Part shown: piece by piece, positions 8,671 to 54,623 of the stretch
Layout of the letters: each line of letters begins with the position of its first letter
Position numbering within the stretch: the stretch's first letter is position 1
NCBI RefSeq assembly: GCF_002864685.1
Contig: NZ_NMQZ01000025.1
Span: forward strand, 1-57,163
Origin: Alloalcanivorax mobilis
GTDB lineage: Bacteria > Pseudomonadota > Gammaproteobacteria > Pseudomonadales > Alcanivoracaceae
DNA length: 57,163 bases
Direction: 5' to 3'
Translations under genes and position numbers: made by a program
The notes under the pieces: generated by a model
Databases searched by the model: none
Told to the model about the DNA's origin: nothing
The model's input: the letters and a program-made list of their open reading frames with translations, nothing else

Positions 8671-8768
8671 GTGTTAAAAGTTAAAAGTTAAAAGTTAAAC
8701 GCGGTCCAGGCTTTACCGGTAGCACGGCCGAGCCCGCGCCTTTTAACGTTTAACCTTCAACTTTCAAC
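8671..8768. repeat. IHA2: AAGTTAA-type inverted heptamer array, 4+4
   Basis: Left arm: GTGTTAA then three AAGTTAA (8671–8698). Right arm: TTTTAAC, GTTTAAC, CTTCAAC, TTTCAAC (8741–8768). The GC-rich core (8699–8740) starts ACGCGG and ends CCCGCGC, itself partly self-complementary. The right arm ends four bases from the frmA stop codon. The element fills the frmA–fghA junction. Confidence 0.85.
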
Positions 8769-8772
8769 TTGT

Positions 8773-11063
<2,291 letters not shown>

Positions 11064-17010: not shown

Positions 17011-17087
17011 TCGACGCCTGACGCCTGACGCCTGACGCTGCTCGCGAAGCGAGCGAAAAGCGTCCAGCGTCCAGCGTCCAGCGTCCG
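17011..17087. repeat. IHA4: GGACGCC-type inverted heptamer array, 4+4
   Basis: Left arm: TCGACGC then three CTGACGC (17011–17038). Right arm: three GCGTCCA then GCGTCCG (17060–17087). The core is short and contains the palindrome-like CTCGCGAAGCGAG, the inverse of CTCGCTTCGCGAG at 16994–17006. It fills the ahcY–metF junction; the right arm ends five bases from the ahcY stop. Confidence 0.87.
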
Positions 17088-17092
17088 GCGCC

Positions 17093-18481
17093 TCAGTATT
17101 TATAATGCTCCGGCTTATAAGGCCCGGCGACGTCGACGCCGATGTAGCCGGCCTGCTTGTCGGTGAGTTTGGTGATTACACCGCCGAAGCCTTGCACCAT
17201 GTAGCGGGCGACTTCTTCGTCCAGGTGCTTGGGCAGCACTTCCACCTGCAGCATTTTTTCCTTGACCGCGTCAGCGCGGTTGGCATAGCCCTGGTCGAAC
17301 AGGTACATCTGCGCCAGCACCTGGTTGGCGAACGAGCCGTCCATGATGCGGCTCGGGTGGCCGGTGGCGTTGCCCAGGTTGACCAGGCGGCCCTCGGAAA
17401 GCAGCAGCAAAAAGTCACCGTCTTTCTTGTTGCGCCACACTTTATGCACCTGGGGTTTCACTTCTTCCCATTCCCAGGTCTTGCGCATGAAGGCGGTATC
17501 CACTTCGTTGTCGAAGTGGCCGATGTTGCACACCACCGCGCCTTTCTTCAGCGCCTTGAGCATGTTGGCGTCGCACACGTTGAAGTTGCCGGTGGTGGTC
17601 ACCAGCAGGTCGGTGTGGCCCAGCAGCGCTTTGTTGATGGAGCCTTCGCTGCCGTCGTTGACGCCATCGTTGTAGGCGCTCACCACCTCGTAGCCGTCCA
17701 TGCAGGCCTGCATGGCGCAGATCGGATCGATCTCGGTGACCTTCACGATCATGCCTTCCTGACGCAACGACTGGGCGGAGCCCTTGCCCACGTCACCGTA
17801 GCCGATCACCAGCGCTTTCTTGCCGGAGAGCAAGTGGTCGGTGCCGCGTTTGATGGCGTCGTTGAGCGAATGGCGGCAACCGTATTTGTTGTCGTTCTTG
17901 CTCTTGGTCACCGAATCGTTGACGTTCACCGCTGGCACTTTCAGGGTGCCTTTCTTGAGCATGTCGTAAAGACGATGCACGCCGGTGGTGGTCTCTTCGG
18001 TGATGCCGTGGATGTTGTTCAGCATGTCCGGGTAGGTGTCATGGATGTAGCCGGTGAGATCGCCGCCGTCATCCAGAATCATGTTGGCGCCCCACAGCTC
18101 GCCGTTGCCATCGCGGCAGGTCTGCTCGATGCACCACATATATTCTTCCTCGGTTTCGCCCTTCCAGGCGAACACCGGCACGCCCGCCGCGGCAATCGCC
18201 GCCGCCGCGTGATCCTGGGTGGAGAAAATGTTGCAGCTCGACCAGCGCACTTCCGCGCCCAGCGCCACCAGCGTCTCGATCAGCACCGCGGTCTGAATGG
18301 TCATGTGAATACAGCCAATGATCTTCGCCCCCTTCAAAGGCTGCTCCGCGCGATACTTCTCACGAATCGTCATCAGCGCCGGCATCTCGGTTTCCGCGAT
18401 ATCAATCTCCGCGCGACCGTATTTGGCCAGGGAAATGTCGGCGACTTTGTAGTCGGTGGTGGGCTTTGCGTTGGCGTTCAT
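17093..18481 (-). CDS. ahcY: Adenosylhomocysteinase (SAH hydrolase)
   Basis: Hydrolyses S-adenosylhomocysteine to homocysteine and adenosine, relieving product inhibition of methyltransferases. The ATG at 18481, after GAGGAA, gives 462 residues, normal for the proteobacterial form that carries an insertion. NAD-binding motif [10 protein letters not shown] and the C-terminal K-P-x-H-Y-K-Y, which reaches into the neighbouring subunit, are both present. Its ribosome site overlaps the stop codon of the upstream four-helix-bundle gene, so the two are probably translationally coupled. Part of the SAM-cycle operon. Confidence 0.97.
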
Positions 18482-18491
18482 GGGCAATTCC

Positions 18492-18887
18492 TCATTCGCT
18501 TGACGCCGGACGCTTGACGCCAGACGCTTTTCGGGGTGTCTCGGCCTGCACGCGGTGGAGCAGTGCTGCCAGTTGGGCAAAGACACGTTCATTTAGGCAG
18601 AGCAGCGCCTCAGGACGTACGTAACTCAGGCGAGCTGCAATCTGAATTTGCGTTTCCAGCTCGAATAGCGAGCCTCGAGCAATGTGGAGAAAGCGCAGAA
18701 ACTCGGCGTCGCTATTGCGGCCGTACCCCTCTGCAATGTTGGAGGGAACGCTCACCGCAGCCCTGCGCATTTGTTGAGCGAGTCCATATAGCTCGAACTT
18801 CGGGAACGCGTTTGTTTCTTCATAAGTGGCAACCACCAAATCCATAGCGGACTGCCACACCCTCAACTTCTCATGCTTCCTGGCCAT
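18492..18887 (-). CDS. Four-helix-bundle protein (23S rRNA intervening-sequence protein, IVP/S23 family)
   Basis: A 131-residue protein of the PF05635/TIGR02436 family: start pattern [13 protein letters not shown], then [25 protein letters not shown], which is the family signature. The family was named from proteins encoded inside 23S rRNA intervening sequences and shares its fold with Avd accessory proteins of diversity-generating retroelements; its activity is not established. AAGGAGGAG lies just before the ATG. The gene fills the interior between two 4-heptamer inverted arms (IHA5), and its last dozen residues (GVKRPASSE region) are translated heptamers. It interrupts a methionine-cycle operon. 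Confidence 0.88.
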
Positions 18888-18929
18888 CTGCTCCTCCTTA
18901 AGCGTCAGGCGTCCAGCGTCAGGCGTCAG
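18500..18929. mobile_element. IHA5: gene-bearing inverted heptamer element carrying the four-helix-bundle gene
   Basis: Left arm: TTGACGC, CGGACGC, TTGACGC, CAGACGC (18500–18527). Right arm: GCGTCAG, GCGTCCA, GCGTCAG, GCGTCAG (18902–18929), inverted relative to the left. The 374 bases between hold only the IVP-family gene and its ribosome site. Arm type and copy number equal those of IHA4, IHA8 and IHA10, which carry short cores instead. Calling it mobile is inference from dispersal and gene cargo; no target-site duplication was identified. Confidence 0.6.
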
Positions 18930-18934
18930 GCGCT

Positions 18935-20083
18935 CTAAAGAGCGGCCTTCAACACCTCCGCCTTATCCGTCTTCTCCCAGCTAAACCCATCCCGCCCAAA
19001 ATGCCCGTAGCTGGCGGTGGGGCGGTAGATGGGTTTGCGCAGGTCGAGCATTTCGATGATGCCGCGCGGGCGCAGGTCGAAGTGTTCGCGGATCAGGGCG
19101 ATGATCTGTTCGTCGCTGATCTTGCCGGTGCCGAAGGTGTTCACTGAAATCGAGGTCGGTTCGGCCACGCCGATGGCGTAGCTGACCTGGATTTCGCACT
19201 TGTCGGCGAGGCCGGCGGCGACGATGTTTTTGGCCACGTAGCGGCCGGCGTAGGCGGCGGAACGGTCCACTTTGGACGGGTCTTTCCCGGAGAAGGCGCC
19301 GCCGCCGTGGCGAGCCATGCCGCCGTAGGTGTCAACGATGATCTTGCGGCCGGTCAGGCCGCAGTCGCCCATCGGGCCGCCGATAATGAACTGGCCGGTG
19401 GGGTTGAGGTGATACTGGGTGCCTTCGTGCAGCCATTCGGCGGGCAGCACCGGCTTCACGATCTCTTCCATCACCGCTTCGCGCAGATCGGACTGAGTCA
19501 CGTCCGGGCTGTGCTGGGTGGAGAGCACCACCGCGTCCACCGCCACCGGCTTGCCGTTTTCATAACGCAGCGTCACCTGGCTCTTGGCGTCCGGGCGCAA
19601 CCAGGGCAGGGCGCCGCTTTTGCGCAGTTTGGCCTGGCGTTCCACCAGCCGGTGGGAAAAATAAATCGGTGCCGGCATCAGCACATCGGTTTCGTTGGTG
19701 GCGTAGCCGAACATCAGGCCCTGGTCGCCGGCGCCGAGGTCTTTGTTGTCGGCTTCGTCCACGCCCATGGCAATGTCGGCGGACTGCTTGCCGATGCCGT
19801 TGAGCACCGCGCAACTGGCGCCGTCGAAGCCGACGTCGGAACTGTCATAGCCGATTTCCAGAATCACCTTGCGGACGATGTCTTCCAGTTCCACGTAGGT
19901 GCTGGTGCGCACCTCACCGGCGACGATCGCCATGCCGGTCTTGACCATGGTCTCCACCGCCACCCGGGCATGCGGGTCATCGGCGATGATGGCATCCAGA
20001 ACGGCGTCCGAAATCTGGTCGGCCATTTTATCGGGGTGGCCTTCGGAGACCGATTCGGAGGTAAAGATGGAATACTCACTCAT
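18935..20083 (-). CDS. metK: S-adenosylmethionine synthetase
   Basis: Makes SAM from methionine and ATP. The ATG at 20083 gives 382 residues, close to the family norm. Signatures: G-H-P-D-K-M-A-D-Q near the N-terminus, [12 protein letters not shown], and the P-loop-like [16 protein letters not shown]. Second gene of the SAM-cycle operon after sahR, separated from it by IHA6 and followed by IHA5 and ahcY. Confidence 0.97.
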
Positions 20084-20131
20084 AAGGGGGTCTCCCGTGA
20101 TTCGATTGGGCGTGGGCCGCGTTGCGGCCAC

Positions 20132-20240
20132 GAGTTACAAGTTGTAAGTCGCAAGTTAAAAGTTAAAACGCGGGCAACACCGTGCCACGTCACCGCCGTG
20201 CCCGCGTCCGAAGCCGCCCTTTTAACTTGTAACTTTCAAC
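20132..20240. repeat. IHA6: AAGTTAA-type inverted heptamer array, 5+3
   Basis: Left arm: GAGTTAC, AAGTTGT, AAGTCGC, AAGTTAA, AAGTTAA (20132–20166). Right arm: TTTTAAC, TTGTAAC, TTTCAAC (20220–20240). The core contains CGCGGGCAACACC and ends near GTGCCCGCG, matching IHA16 read in reverse. The right arm overlaps the sahR stop codon and lies in the metK leader. Confidence 0.85.
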
Positions 20241-21273: not shown

Positions 21274-21426
21274 GTCGGACGTCTGACGTCGGACGTCGGA
21301 CGCTCAAACCCGGATCAGGACTGTTGGCAGTGTTTCCTGCCGGGGCCAGGACCGAGGTTGCAGAAAACACGCCGCCCCTCCCGGATCGGTGGTTTAGCGT
21401 CTGACGTCCGACGTCAGACGTCCGAC
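21274..21426. repeat. IHA7: GGACGTC-type inverted heptamer array, 4+4, near-perfect stem
   Basis: Left arm: GTCGGAC, GTCTGAC, GTCGGAC, GTCGGAC (21274–21301). Right arm: GTCTGAC, GTCCGAC, GTCAGAC, GTCCGAC (21399–21426). Reverse-complementing the right arm reproduces the left arm in the same unit order with one mismatch. The core is the long form also seen in IHA3 and IHA10 (AAACCCGG at one end, GGTTTAGC at the other, with AGTGTTTCCTGC and GCAGAAAACAC inside). It lies between the divergent sahR and tkt genes. Confidence 0.9.
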
Positions 21427-23552: not shown

Positions 23553-23630
23553 ACGCCGGACGCCGGACGCCGGACGCCGGACGCTTAGAGCCGCGCTTTT
23601 CAGCGTCTGGCGTCCAGCGTCCGGCGTCGA
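23553..23630. repeat. IHA8: GGACGCC-type inverted heptamer array, 4+4
   Basis: Left arm: four exact ACGCCGG plus ACGC (23553–23584), starting on the base after the tkt stop. Right arm: GCGTCTG, GCGTCCA, GCGTCCG, GCGTCGA (23603–23630). The core is only 18 bases. The right arm runs to ten bases before the next ATG, so the ribosome site of that gene (GAGCGG) is partly array sequence. Confidence 0.87.
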
Positions 23631-23639
23631 GCGGTTTCT

Positions 23640-24671
23640 ATGAACATCGCCATCAACGGCTATGGCCGTATTGGTCGTTCTTTTGTGCGCGCCCTGGCCG
23701 AGCGCGAGGCGGCGGGGTGGCGGGCGCCGTTCACGCTGGCGGCGATCAACGACCCCGGCCGCGCCGAGGATCTGCTCTATCTGACCCGTTACGACACCAC
23801 GCACGGACGCCTGAACGCGCCGGTGGAACTGGCCGAAGGGCGTCTGCGCATCGGCAATCAGACGCCGCGCCTGTGCAGCGAAACCGAACCGGAGAACCTG
23901 CCCTGGGCGGAACTCGGCGTCGATCTGGTGCTCGAATGCTCAGGCCACTTTCGCGGCCACGCGGACGCCGCCCGCCATCTGAGCGCCGGCGCCCGCCGCG
24001 TGATTCTCGGCGCGGTGCCGTTCGACCACGCCGATCAGGTGATCGTCTTCGGCGTCAATCACCGTGACCTGGACGCCAGCAGCCGGGTGCTCTCCGCCGC
24101 GTCGTGCACCACCCATTGCATCGCGCCGCTGCTGGCCGGGCTGGACCGGGAATACGGCGTGCGCCAGGTGTTGATGAAAGAGATCCACGCCTACACCTCG
24201 GACCAGTCCCTGCTCGACCACGTGCACCGGGACCCGCGCCGGGGCCGGGCGGCGGCGCAGAACATCGTGCCCACCACCAGCAGTGCCATCGGCGCCGTGC
24301 AAAGTGTGCTGCCGGCCCTGGAAGGGCGCATCACCGGCCACTCGATCCGCGTGCCCACCCTCAATGTGGCGATGGTCGAGCTGACCCTGCTGCTGGAAAA
24401 CACGCCCGACGCCGGCTCGCTCAACGGCTGGCTGAAGGCGCTTGCTGACGGCAGCCCGACGCTGATTGGGTACAATGACGAACCCTTGGTCAGCGCTGAT
24501 TTCAACCGCCGCCCGGAATCCGCCATCGTCGACGCCACCCAGACCCGGGTGCAGGGCGACATGGTGCAGGTGGTGGCCTGGTACGACAACGAATGGGGCT
24601 ACGCCAACCGACTGCTCGATTGGGTGGCTTATTTAGCGTCGGACGTCAGACGTCGGACGTCCGACGCTTAA
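23640..24671 (+). CDS. gap: Glyceraldehyde-3-phosphate / erythrose-4-phosphate dehydrogenase family
   Basis: NAD-binding start AINGYGRIGR, catalytic Cys156 in A-S-C-T-T-H-C, catalytic His in E-I-H-A-Y-T, and the C-terminal W-Y-D-N-E-W-G-Y-A-N-R. The residue three after the cysteine is His, where GAPDH and Epd usually have Asn. Sequence strings such as NIVPTTSSAIGAV look more GAPDH-like, but the gene position (tkt–x–pgk–fba) is that of epd in related bacteria, so substrate is uncertain. About 343 residues; the last ten (SDVRRRTSDA) are translated IHA9 heptamers, and the stop codon comes from the array. Confidence 0.85.
   Translation: MNIAINGYGRIGRSFVRALAEREAAGWRAPFTLAAINDPGRAEDLLYLTRYDTTHGRLNAPVELAEGRLRIGNQTPRLCSETEPENLPWAELGVDLVLECSGHFRGHADAARHLSAGARRVILGAVPFDHADQVIVFGVNHRDLDASSRVLSAASCTTHCIAPLLAGLDREYGVRQVLMKEIHAYTSDQSLLDHVHRDPRRGRAAAQNIVPTTSSAIGAVQSVLPALEGRITGHSIRVPTLNVAMVELTLLLENTPDAGSLNGWLKALADGSPTLIGYNDEPLVSADFNRRPESAIVDATQTRVQGDMVQVVAWYDNEWGYANRLLDWVAYLASDVRRRTSDA
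24636..24667. repeat. IHA9: coreless GGACGTC-type heptamer palindrome
   Basis: Units GCGTCGG, ACGTCAG, ACGTCGG, ACGTCCG, ACGC form a nearly perfect palindrome with no core. It begins inside the 3′ end of the dehydrogenase gene and supplies its last codons; the stop follows immediately at 24669. Located in the gap–pgk junction. Confidence 0.85.
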
Positions 24672-25907: not shown

Positions 25908-26044
25908 TGGACGCCAGACGCTCGACGCCGGACGCTAAACCCGGTTCTGCGGTCTTCGGTGTGTTTGCTGCTAGCAATTGCAGGAAACACACCGGGCTTC
26001 TCGGTCTACGAGTTTAGCGTCAAGCGTCTGGCGTCCAGCGTCCG
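25908..26044. repeat. IHA10: GGACGCC-type inverted heptamer array, 4+4, with a long core
   Basis: Left arm: TGGACGC, CAGACGC, TCGACGC, CGGACGC (25908–25935). Right arm: GCGTCAA, GCGTCTG, GCGTCCA, GCGTCCG (26017–26044). Read in reverse, the right arm has the order CGG, TGG, CAG, TTG against TGG, CAG, TCG, CGG on the left, matching after a one-unit shift. The core has AAACCCGG…GAGTTTAG at its ends and GTGTGTTTGCTG…GCAGGAAACACAC inside, as in IHA3 and IHA7. Fills the pgk–fba junction. Confidence 0.88.
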
Positions 26045-39939: not shown

Positions 39940-40107
39940 TTTCAATTTTCAACTTTCAATTTTTAACTTTTAACGCGTTCTTGATTGGCACGGCATCGTC
40001 GCCGCGTAATCCTGGCTTGCAGCTTGCAGCTTGCAGCTTGCAGCTTGCAGCTTGCCGCTTGCAGCTTGCAGCTTGCAGCTTGCAGCTTGCAGCTTGCAGC
40101 TTGCAGC
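39940..40107. repeat. IHA14: composite array, five TTTCAAC-type plus thirteen TTGCAGC heptamers
   Basis: First array (39940–39974): TTTCAAT, TTTCAAC, TTTCAAT, TTTTAAC, TTTTAAC. Second array (40017–40107): thirteen consecutive 7-mers, twelve exact TTGCAGC and one TTGCCGC (40052–40058). Between them is a short core starting GCGTTC with CACGGCATCGTCGCCGCG. Two different heptamer types on the two sides is unique in this window. The second array ends five bases from the 3′ end of 6S RNA. Confidence 0.9.
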
Positions 40108-40111
40108 TCGA

Positions 40112-41748: not shown

Positions 41749-43071
41749 ATGACCGTCCGTCGCCAGGAATTCCAGCGCCGTCGCCGCGAGCTGATGGCGC
41801 AGATGGAACCCAACAGCATCGCCATTCTGCCGGCCGCCCCGGAGCGCACCCGCAACCGCGACGTGGAGCACCCCTACCGCCAGGACAGTGACTTCTGGTA
41901 TCTGAGCGGCTTCCCCGAACCGGACGCGGTGATGGTGCTGCTGCCCGGCCGCGAGCACGGCGAATACGTGATGTTCTGCCGCGAACGCGACCGCGCCCGG
42001 GAAATCTGGAACGGCTACCGCGCCGGCCCGGAAGGCGCCGTGGAACAGCACGACGCCGACGACGCCTTTCCCATTGGCGACATCGATGAAATCCTGCCCG
42101 GGCTGGTGGAAGGCCGCACCCGGGTCTATTACGACATCGGCCGCGACGCCGGCTTCGACCGCCAGCTGATGGGCTGGGTCAACACCCTCCGTGAGCGGGT
42201 GCGCACCGGCGCCCAGCCGCCCGGCGAATTCGTCGCCCTGTCGCACCTTCTGCACGACATGCGCCTGGTCAAAAGCGCCGCCGAAGTGCAGGTGATGCAA
42301 CAGGCCGCCAGTATTTCCGCCGGCGCCCACGTGCGCGCCATGAAAACGGTGCGCCCGGGCATGTACGAATACCAGCTGGAAGCGGAATACCTGCACGAAT
42401 TCATGCGCCATGGCGCGCGCAGCCCGGCCTACCCGAGCATCGTCGGCGGCGGCGCCAACGGCTGCATCCTGCACTACATCGAAAACAGCGCCAAACTGAA
42501 AGACGGCGATCTGGTGCTGATCGACGCCGGCTGCGAACTGGAGAACTACGCCTCCGACATCACCCGCACCTTCCCGGTGAACGGCACATTCAGCGGTGAG
42601 CAAAAAGCCCTTTACGAGCTGGTGCTGGCCTCGCAATACGCCGCCATCAAGGACACCCACCCGGACAACCACTGGAACGTGCCCCACGAAACCGTGGTGC
42701 GCATTCTCACCGAAGGTTTGCTGGACCTGGGCCTGCTGAAAGGCGAGCTGAATGAGCTGATTGAAACCCTCGCTTACCAGCGCTTCTACATGCACCGCAC
42801 CGGCCATTGGCTGGGCCTGGACGTGCACGACGTGGGCGACTACCGCATCCAGGGCCAATGGCGCCAGCTCGAACCCGGCATGACCCTGACCGTGGAACCG
42901 GGCCTCTACATCGCCCCCGACGACGACACCGTGGACGAACGCTGGCGCGGCATCGGCATCCGCATCGAAGACGACGTGCTGGTCACCAAAGACGGCTGCG
43001 ACGTGCTTACCCACGAAGTGCCCAAGGACATCGATGACATTGAAGCGTTGATGAAGGAAGTTAAAAGTTGA
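41749..43071 (+). CDS. pepP: Xaa-Pro aminopeptidase P
   Basis: Metallo-aminopeptidase removing N-terminal residues that precede proline. The ATG at 41749, with AGGAGAG upstream, gives 440 residues. N-terminal creatinase-like domain with F-W-Y-L-S-G-F-P-E-P; C-terminal pita-bread domain with metal ligands in D-A-G-C, D-I-T-R-T-F-P-V-N-G, G-H-W-L-G-L-D-V-H-D and V-E-P-G-L-Y. The final codons (V-K-S) and the stop codon lie inside IHA15, so the element formed the present 3′ end. Upstream of ubiH as in E. coli. Confidence 0.95.
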   Translation: MTVRRQEFQRRRRELMAQMEPNSIAILPAAPERTRNRDVEHPYRQDSDFWYLSGFPEPDAVMVLLPGREHGEYVMFCRERDRAREIWNGYRAGPEGAVEQHDADDAFPIGDIDEILPGLVEGRTRVYYDIGRDAGFDRQLMGWVNTLRERVRTGAQPPGEFVALSHLLHDMRLVKSAAEVQVMQQAASISAGAHVRAMKTVRPGMYEYQLEAEYLHEFMRHGARSPAYPSIVGGGANGCILHYIENSAKLKDGDLVLIDAGCELENYASDITRTFPVNGTFSGEQKALYELVLASQYAAIKDTHPDNHWNVPHETVVRILTEGLLDLGLLKGELNELIETLAYQRFYMHRTGHWLGLDVHDVGDYRIQGQWRQLEPGMTLTVEPGLYIAPDDDTVDERWRGIGIRIEDDVLVTKDGCDVLTHEVPKDIDDIEALMKEVKS

Positions 43072-43165
43072 AAGTTAAAAGTTAAAACGCGGTTCAGGCC
43101 CGTGCCTTGGAAATCATCGTGCCCGCGCCGATTTCCCTTTCAACTTTTAACTTGTAACTTTCAAC
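43058..43165. repeat. IHA15: AAGTTAA-type inverted heptamer array, 4+4
   Basis: Left arm: AAGTTAA, AAGTTGA, AAGTTAA, AAGTTAA (43058–43085), starting inside pepP. Right arm: TTTCAAC, TTTTAAC, TTGTAAC, TTTCAAC (43138–43165). The core (43086–43137) contains at 43104–43130 a 27-base segment repeated exactly, inverted, in IHA16. It fills the pepP–ubiH junction. Confidence 0.88.
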
Positions 43166-44409: not shown

Positions 44410-44517
44410 CAGTTGAAAGTTACAAGTTAAAAGTTAAAAGGAAAACCGGCGCGGGCACGATGATTTCCAAGGCGCGGGTGTTGCCCGCGTTTCAACTTTT
44501 AACTTTGAACTTTCAAC
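44410..44517. repeat. IHA16: AAGTTAA-type inverted heptamer array, 4+4
   Basis: Left arm: CAGTTGA, AAGTTAC, AAGTTAA, AAGTTAA (44410–44437), six bases after the ubiH stop. Right arm: TTTCAAC, TTTTAAC, TTTGAAC, TTTCAAC (44490–44517). The core lies in the opposite orientation to IHA15 and IHA6: 44447–44473 is the exact reverse complement of 43104–43130. It fills the ubiH–ubiI junction. Confidence 0.88.
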
Positions 44518-54031: not shown

Positions 54032-54089
54032 CACGCACCACGCTACACGCACCACGCTTTTTGCGTGCCAGCGTGAAGCGTGCAGCGTG
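54032..54089. repeat. IHA17: GCGTG-type inverted heptamer array, 4+4
   Basis: CACGC at 54032, 54039, 54046 and 54053 (exact 7-base period) forms the left arm; GCGTG at 54063, 54071, 54078 and 54085 forms the right arm. The loop is TTTTT, so the whole can fold as one hairpin. It starts 11 bases after the gcvT stop and ends 13 bases before the gcvH ribosome site. Confidence 0.83.
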
Positions 54090-54535: not shown

Positions 54536-54623
54536 GTCGGACGTCAGACGTCTGACGTCGGACGCAAAACCCTGAGGTCGGGGTCTTTTCTTTGCGTCGG
54601 ACGTCCGACGTCAGGCGTCCGAC
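54536..54623. repeat. IHA18: GGACGTC-type inverted heptamer array, 4+4
   Basis: Left arm: GTCGGAC, GTCAGAC, GTCTGAC, GTCGGAC (54536–54563). Right arm: GTCGGAC, GTCCGAC, GTCAGGC, GTCCGAC (54596–54623). The core keeps AAAACCC next to the left arm, as in IHA7, then GGTCGGGGTCTTTTCTTTGC. Fills the gcvH–gcvPA junction. Just before it, 54516–54532 is a GC hairpin (GCCGGGC/GCCCGGG). Confidence 0.88.

Follow-up and report, generated by a model that had tools for sequence, protein, structure and literature searches.

The IVP gene and its arms

The DNA analyzed here, a stretch of 57,163 nt from Alloalcanivorax mobilis (the window), carries a gene of the IVP/S23 family, which encodes a four-helix-bundle protein of 131 aa, on the reverse strand at positions 18492..18887. 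In profile searches, this ORF matched PF05635 with an E-value of 1.5e-36 (125.3 bits, with a curated cut-off of 33.8) and TIGR02436 with 116.7 bits (cut-off 24). The gene is located between two protein genes and not within a 23S rRNA gene. Its left neighbor (17093..18481, reverse strand) is an ORF that takes the name ahcY from the initial annotation and from its SAH riboswitch context, and its right neighbor (18935..20131, reverse strand) is an ORF that takes the name metK from the initial annotation.

The gene had been described as flanked by four NNGACGC heptamers and four GCGTCNN heptamers, and 4 + 4 units were indeed found. The left arm, on the 3' side of the gene (18497..18529), is composed of GACGC heptamers with four units at 18502-18527, and the right arm, on the 5' side (18900..18934), is composed of GCGTC heptamers with four units at 18902-18927 plus a degenerate GCGCT, and extends to the metK stop. 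The pair formed by 18497-18529 and 18900-18932 is 88% complementary across 33 nt. The description of the arms as bounding the gene holds for the right arm, which lies outside the ORF, but not strictly for the left arm, since it overlaps the last codons and encodes the final residues of the IVP ORF; the Pfam match ends at 18585. Among the ORFs at 18497-18934, no second gene was found between the arms, so that IVP is the sole gene there, as had been claimed, and the element contains no transposase, recombinase or reverse transcriptase.

Arms were scored with a composite of the inverted match and the period-7 self-match of both arms over 28 nt. The IVP arms in the window scored 56, which no random same-sized placement in the window equalled (0 of 2919, maximum 49), and no dinucleotide-shuffled version of the flanks did either (0 of 1000, maximum 43). 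The element thus delimited has terminal inverted repeats with heptameric units that can form a stem around the S23 ORF, and in its predicted fold (-190.4 kcal/mol, z -3.86) the two arms pair with each other. The same genome carries a second IVP copy in a different gap, with arms of the CAAGC type.

Gene-less inverted elements in the window

A total of 12 inverted heptamer elements were detected in the window, the IVP-bearing one and 11 gene-less ones; none was detected in six dinucleotide shuffles of the window, and none of period 5, 6, 8, 9 or 10 was detected in the window itself. Four of the gene-less elements have GACGC-type arms (9913..10094; 17013..17086, just past the ahcY stop; 23553..23628; and 25909..26042), in agreement with the earlier claim that gene-less elements with arms of the IVP type are found nearby. 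The remaining ones belong to the AAAGTTA type (8673..8769, 43058..43165 and 44417..44513), the AAGTTAA type (20148..20240), the CACGC type (54032..54089) and the GACGTC type (21278..21422, self-palindromic, and 54540..54622).

Self-palindromic GACGTC arrays capped by GACGC were seen at 21278-21422, 24642-24661 and 54540-54622 of the window and also in genomes G034 and G035. These two genomes are without a detected IVP gene, and GACGTC arrays may be a separate element. In addition, about 13 GCTTGCA heptamers form a one-sided array at 40015-40108, with no inverted partner found nearby.

Inverted arms around IVP genes across bacteria

Across many bacterial phyla, the IVP gene is usually flanked by inverted arms with a repeat unit of 7 or 8 nt. 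Searches with PF05635 were positive for 12 of 13 genomes of the genus, 29 of 46 genomes of the family Alcanivoracaceae, 19 of 145 genomes drawn from the order and 27 of 150 drawn from the phylum, with some genomes recurring across searches; in the family search, only copies returned as loci entered arm scoring, and further copies were added for the grouping by gap. A period-7 score of at least 44 was reached by 67 of the 81 IVP loci from genus to phylum, compared with 10 of 619 shifted controls. The mean excess over controls at these 81 loci was 17 points at period 7 and 0.1 to 2.7 points at periods 5, 6, 8, 9 and 10. A domain-wide set was assembled from the best 80 of at least 588 genome loci and from 22 viral contig loci, with an alignment of nine sequences as the query, and is biased to IVPs of the PSNI(A/T)E type. 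Once two loci with short flanks (L184 and L198) were excluded from scoring, 72 of 100 loci in this set of best and viral loci scored at least 44, compared with 18 of 800 controls; scores at period 8 were elevated as well in the same set (40.4 vs 33.6).

The best period (z ≥3) was then assigned for 179 IVP loci, 4 of 183 having been dropped from this count and from the strict count given below. It was 7 in 90 loci, 14 in 36, 8 in 24 and another period in 8, with none in 21; in a background of 509, the corresponding numbers were 6, 5, 2 and 19, with none in 477. Because the composite score can rise without inversion, a strict recount was made that required a score of 46 or more together with inverted matches at no fewer than 18 of the 28 positions. 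Inverted arms were found by this recount at 148 of 179 IVP loci (126 with period 7 and 22 with period 8) vs 2 of 703 controls. As IVP loci are not independent, including orthologues and identical viral contigs, a count by protein cluster (70% identity) was also made, in which 107 of 122 clusters had arms. Several of the 31 loci that failed the strict criterion are sub-cutoff or broken genes, and three loci (L054, L087 and L166) are of period 7 by best period yet have fewer than 18 inverted matches.

The initial annotation had proposed that IVP flanks in relatives be compared with those of size-matched small genes, and this comparison revealed a large excess of inverted heptamers. A score of at least 46 at period 7 or 8 was found for 64 of 76 IVP genes vs 16 of 265 size-matched small genes from the same loci, the latter rate being overstated since three of eight high-scoring controls that were scanned, namely the two highest and one more, are themselves IVP genes. 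The units also have a preferred polarity, being G-rich when read inward in 106 of 128 loci (negative in 19 and zero in 3).

Unit length and the IVP protein tree

Unit length was found to track the IVP protein lineage and not the host phylum. A quick maximum-likelihood LG tree was built from 167 IVP proteins, after identical proteins were collapsed (173 to 167) and 10 weak or broken matches were omitted; 152 of these proteins had a clear unit label, 127 of them 7 and 25 of them 8, with L208 labelled 8 though its best score is at period 9. The label changes 11 times on the tree, compared with a mean of 20.9 (minimum 16) when labels were shuffled within host phylum, and 0 of 200 shuffles were as low. 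For Bacteroidota alone (31 proteins), five changes were counted vs a mean of 10.4 (minimum 7; 0 of 300 as low). One clade of 11 proteins (support 93), all with 8-nt units, brings together Bacteroidota, KSB1, Thermodesulfobacteriota and Nitrospirota.

The letters of the unit behave otherwise. Between families, unit letters and protein identity gave a Spearman correlation of 0.05, and mean unit-letter similarity goes up only above approximately 60% protein identity. The idea that the protein dictates the unit letters was rejected, as letters are common to close relatives only.

Turnover at orthologous loci

The IVP genes examined in Alcanivoracaceae occupy eight gap groups, five of which have more than one copy. 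At orthologous loci, both arms switch heptamer type together; in the largest gap group (19 genomes), arms of the CAAGC, AAGTT, CGAGTT, CGAGCT or CAGG type were found, with both arms agreeing. Arm similarity was higher within than between genomes in the four largest groups (0, 0, 6 and 44 of 1000 permutations), with L043 and L048 excluded as duplicates. An origin of the arms as nested copies of each other was considered and dropped, as the unit-order permutation was not significant (73 vs 57 loci, p 0.19).

The order metK-IVP-ahcY is present in 4 of 13 genomes of the genus, with GACGC arms in G000 and CACGC arms in G002, G004 and G012; uneven spacing of the CACGC units keeps the scores of the latter three copies down to 38-39. 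The other nine genomes have metK-ahcY without IVP, so that the order, for which junctions lacking the gene had been suggested as a check, is not ancient and fixed. No inverted heptamer element was found in the 320 nt before ahcY in any of these nine. Seven of them (L022, L025, L026 and L028-L031) have an SAH riboswitch (RF01057) upstream of ahcY, and two have neither; RF01057 was not found in the metK-ahcY gap of the four IVP-carrying genomes, nor in that of G007 and G010.

A gene-less site was also followed in four close relatives (L292-L295), where the arms are kept and the flanks are 90-97% identical. Among the six pairs of interiors, three were no more alike than shuffled sequence, one fell in the shuffled range and two were above it (0.65 and 0.68), and the arm type of G002 differs from that of the other three. 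Of nine other genomes, eight are without the element at this site, and in G000 none was found in the approximately 340 nt covered past the match. The site looks like a case of cargo exchange between arms.

Insertion in cyanobacterial plasmids

In cyanobacterial plasmids, the arms and the IVP gene have inserted together, as a single unit flanked by a 5-bp direct repeat. A tblastn search (limit 1e-8) revealed IVP genes in 24 plasmid records, of which 22 are from cyanobacteria; phage records gave no match to the window protein at E 1e-5. Matched inverted heptamer arms were present at 10 of 11 plasmid loci taken from the 24, some of which are mutual orthologues, and L270 was the sole locus without them. 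At one site, the element is present in plasmids of Trichormus and Scytonema, and the site is empty in Nostoc carneum, N. linckia, Microchaete and Aulosira. The BLAST pieces overlapped by exactly 5 nt (GTAAT) in all eight filled/empty comparisons, and the flanks share 97-99% identity. Element length is 423 bp in one filled plasmid and 409 bp in the other, and the 14 bp of difference correspond to two heptamers. A Nostoc plasmid (C052) has a decayed copy at the same site. At five other plasmid sites, relatives without the element were found, but the junctions there are not clean, so that 1 of 6 junctions is clean; no duplication could be read at these five sites or for the window copy. The clean insertion with its 5-bp repeat belongs to a cyanobacterial relative and not to the window copy.

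Two further features of these plasmids were recorded. Both filled plasmids have a reverse transcriptase gene less than 10 kb from IVP (L282, 17123-18979; L287, 15458-17224, ltrA), and one empty plasmid (L286) also carries a reverse transcriptase gene. In a plasmid of Anabaena sp. 90 (L271), an IVP element separates cas6 from cas4 in a type I-D CRISPR operon, and a Dolichospermum plasmid has a different insert at this site with flanks that are 98-99% identical. IVP is listed among the abbreviations of a figure on CRISPR-linked genes in the accessible part of one publication (PMC10910872).

Heptamer arrays elsewhere in the genomes

The flanks of 79 IVP loci (1.23 Mb) contained 49 gene-less inverted elements, in 30 of the loci, although some of the long-loop elements in this count hold or may hold IVP genes (the one at L221 does). 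Gene-less arrays have unit type and inward polarity in common with the IVP arms nearby. In unit type, 42 gene-less elements had a similarity of 0.62 to the IVP arms at their own locus, compared with 0.47 to those at other loci (0 of 300 permutations) and 0.42 when the polarity was reversed.

In two families, genomes with IVP tend to have heptamer arrays at other places as well, with exceptions. Twenty stretches from IVP-positive genomes, 16 of them picked around IVP, contained IVP and gene-less elements, with two giving none, and no inverted element was found in 18 stretches from IVP-negative genomes of the family (20 taken, 2 masked). Whole-genome matches to array patterns, which here include the IVP genes' own arms and one-sided arrays, were found in 29 of 29 IVP-positive vs 6 of 17 IVP-negative Alcanivoracaceae (Fisher 9e-7, phylogeny ignored). 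In a second family, 15 of 35 IVP-positive vs 3 of 86 IVP-negative genomes had matches (2.7e-7, phylogeny ignored), or 13 of 35 if a genome is counted only when its listed matches are away from the IVP gene (4.5e-6, phylogeny ignored); the 20 of 35 IVP-positive genomes without a match are to be read with a pattern that spans one unit type.

Genomes without a detected IVP gene that have arrays include G005 (135 pattern matches), G034 (197, of the self-palindromic type), G035 (78), G013 (14), G044 (6) and G040 (5), and arrays therefore need no resident IVP at present. A very long one-sided GAGCTAC array with more than 40 units was seen in G015 (G015:C3:204959-205285).

Relationship to known proteins and repeats

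Crystal structures exist for the S23/IVP family. An AF2 model of the window protein (mean pLDDT 92.9) has four helices, and its best Foldseek match was 2gsc (TMt 0.87-0.91). Avd (4dwl) and the DGR particle (8ub7/8ube) matched with a TMt of about 0.8 but with weak E-values, none below 0.16, and good scores were also obtained for plant pectin-methylesterase inhibitors and for a designed bundle. Judged from this model, the likeness of IVP to Avd is structural. DGR Avd has its fold in common with IVP, and homology is stated in the accessible text of PMC10053308. Unlike DGRs, the window element has no reverse transcriptase and no template/variable repeat, and its protein matches PF05635, not bAvd.

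The IVP element also has features in common with MITEs, REPINs and insertion sequences, taking the general features of these families, namely inverted ends, a target duplication (in one case) and gene-less relatives. It differs from them in having no transposase and in that a changeable unit, repeated in tandem, forms its ends in place of a fixed terminal repeat.

The intervening sequences (IVSs) in 23S rRNA genes of Coxiella and Leptospira resemble the window element, as far as the accessible portions of the IVS papers describe them, in the S23/IVP protein family, a similar size, a terminal complementary stem and heptamers; unlike them, the window copy sits between protein genes. The accessible text on the Coxiella IVS (428 nt) reports heptameric repeats before the ORF and a 28-bp terminal stem, which RNase III cleaves, on the 5' side at the first heptamer (PMC4990558). 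Two IVP genes in our set (L058 and L060) are embedded in LSU rRNA genes, in the orientation of the rRNA gene, and have period-7 arms with scores of 56 and 53, so classical IVSs look like one form of the element; the remaining loci were screened for rRNA with five short rRNA strings only. The accessible portions of the IVS papers contained no general 7/8-nt rule, link to protein lineage, gene-less relatives or 5-bp repeat. Within a literature scope that left out most subscription journals and all preprints, the Coxiella paper was the only one found to link IVP genes with heptamer arrays.

Dispersed intergenic heptamer arrays have been reported in Xanthomonas (GGGAATC) and Nostoc (GGGGAYT), with 70 and 75 convergent inverted heptamer pairs in two Xanthomonas genomes, in the accessible part of PMC4692102, and TAACTGA arrays have been reported in Beggiatoaceae in that of PMC4679880. 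Together with repeats in Calothrix, these are similar to the gene-less arrays in being dispersed, intergenic and heptameric. In the accessible portions of these papers, the repeats are read as G-quadruplexes or as elements of translational regulation and no IVP link was found; "four helix" has no match in that of PMC4692102. An IVP gene of X. arboricola (L236) has GGGAATC-type arms.

A probable miniature mobile element and alternative explanations

We consider it probable, at roughly 60%, that IVP and its arms form a discrete miniature mobile element of approximately 0.4-0.5 kb, which would include the rRNA IVSs and, as non-autonomous forms, the gene-less arrays. IVP would be the only gene of this element; the window copy would have landed between metK and ahcY, and classical 23S rRNA IVSs with an S23 ORF would be IVP elements that landed in rRNA. 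Gene-less inverted arrays would represent non-autonomous relatives with the same unit types and inward polarity and with other or no cargo. In favor of such an element are the 7/8-nt arm rule across phyla, the unit length that tracks the IVP lineage, the arrays elsewhere that co-occur with IVP and resemble its arms in type, the joint switches of both arms and the clean insertion of a relative. The suggestion made in the initial annotation that the window copy is the gene-carrying form of the dispersed hairpins gains support from the flank excess at other loci, the shared type and polarity and the metK-IVP-ahcY order that is not fixed. Counted against a mobile element are the single clean junction and the absence of a mobility enzyme inside the element, as well as the arrays without IVP, the strict failures (31/179), arms that are not clearly nested and the weak tie between letters and protein.

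A unit for RNA processing that is not mobile is an unlikely alternative. RNase III would cut the arm stem and thereby separate or autoregulate the IVP mRNA, and gene-less arrays would be processing sites or terminators. The predicted fold of the window element with its paired arms fits this explanation, as do the RNase III cleavage described for the Coxiella IVS stem in the accessible part of PMC4990558 and several gene-less interiors with stable predicted folds (for instance, -34 to -36 kcal/mol over 86-95 nt). However, G-T mismatches on the gene strand numbered 143 vs 182 A-C mismatches across 150 loci, with no excess of RNA wobble pairs; selection for an RNA stem thus found no support, and neither did the proposal that the protein acts on the folded arms in its RNA version. 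RNA processing also leaves unexplained that period 7 or 8 follows the protein, that type changes are concerted and that the insertion with the 5-bp repeat is clean. As there is no wobble excess and the arms are not clearly nested, arrays of binding sites, on DNA or RNA, are favored over a stem.

Quite improbable, and to about the same degree, are two further explanations. In one, replication slippage and palindrome templating would give rise to the arms with no role of IVP, which would be a passenger in repeat-rich gaps. Arrays in some genomes without detected IVP, long one-sided arrays such as the GAGCTAC array in G015 and the difference by whole units between two copies of one element are in line with slippage, but size-matched genes at the same loci seldom have matched arms, other periods yield nothing in the window, unit length follows the IVP lineage across phyla, and arrays go with IVP presence in two families. 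In the other, IVP would be a post-transcriptional regulator that binds arrays in many transcripts, with its own arms as an autoregulatory site; in the accessible text of MacGregor (PMC4679880), TAACTGA arrays were proposed to bind such a regulator. The match in type between gene-less arrays and IVP arms within a genome and the unit length that follows the protein are in line with this proposal. The element inserts as a unit, however, and at L292-L295 the arms are kept while interiors differ and the arm type changes among close relatives, which would be odd for a fixed regulon.

For the miniature mobile element, a mechanism can be outlined. IVP, as an Avd-like four-helix bundle, may bind the repeated units, with one unit per bound IVP protein, which would fix the period at 7 or 8 nt, and it may deliver either the transcript or the two ends to a trans-acting enzyme, for which a reverse transcriptase or a recombinase is the likeliest candidate. 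Whole units would be gained and lost by slippage within the arrays. In transcripts, the arms could pair and RNase III could cut the element out, as reported for rRNA IVSs, so that intergenic copies would be tolerable. A protein that acts on the arms and aids spread or a change in copy number is consistent with the finding that unit length follows protein lineage.

A bolder reading, which seems possible but doubtful, is that IVP itself is the mobility factor of a new class of element. With 7 or 8 nt per subunit, it would both write and read the ends and, with a host enzyme, mobilize hundreds of gene-less arrays as well as the gene that encodes it, and IVSs and dispersed heptamers would all be its products. 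More generally, the miniature mobile element would connect three questions that are treated separately in the accessible literature: how rRNA IVSs originate and spread, what role the S23/IVP protein plays, and where the dispersed heptamers of Beggiatoaceae, Nostoc, Xanthomonas and other bacteria come from. Should IVP cooperate with a reverse transcriptase in the manner of Avd, the element would rank with the smallest mobile elements that carry a gene. The results point toward miniature mobile elements of a widespread kind that has been overlooked, for which IVP is predicted to bind its own arm unit, with a footprint that differs between 7-nt and 8-nt lineages.

A separate observation concerns locus L092 (genome G232), where the IVP arms are best at period 8 (TAGGGCAG), whereas the other copies in the genus have 7-nt arms; this locus is possibly a recent switch in unit length.
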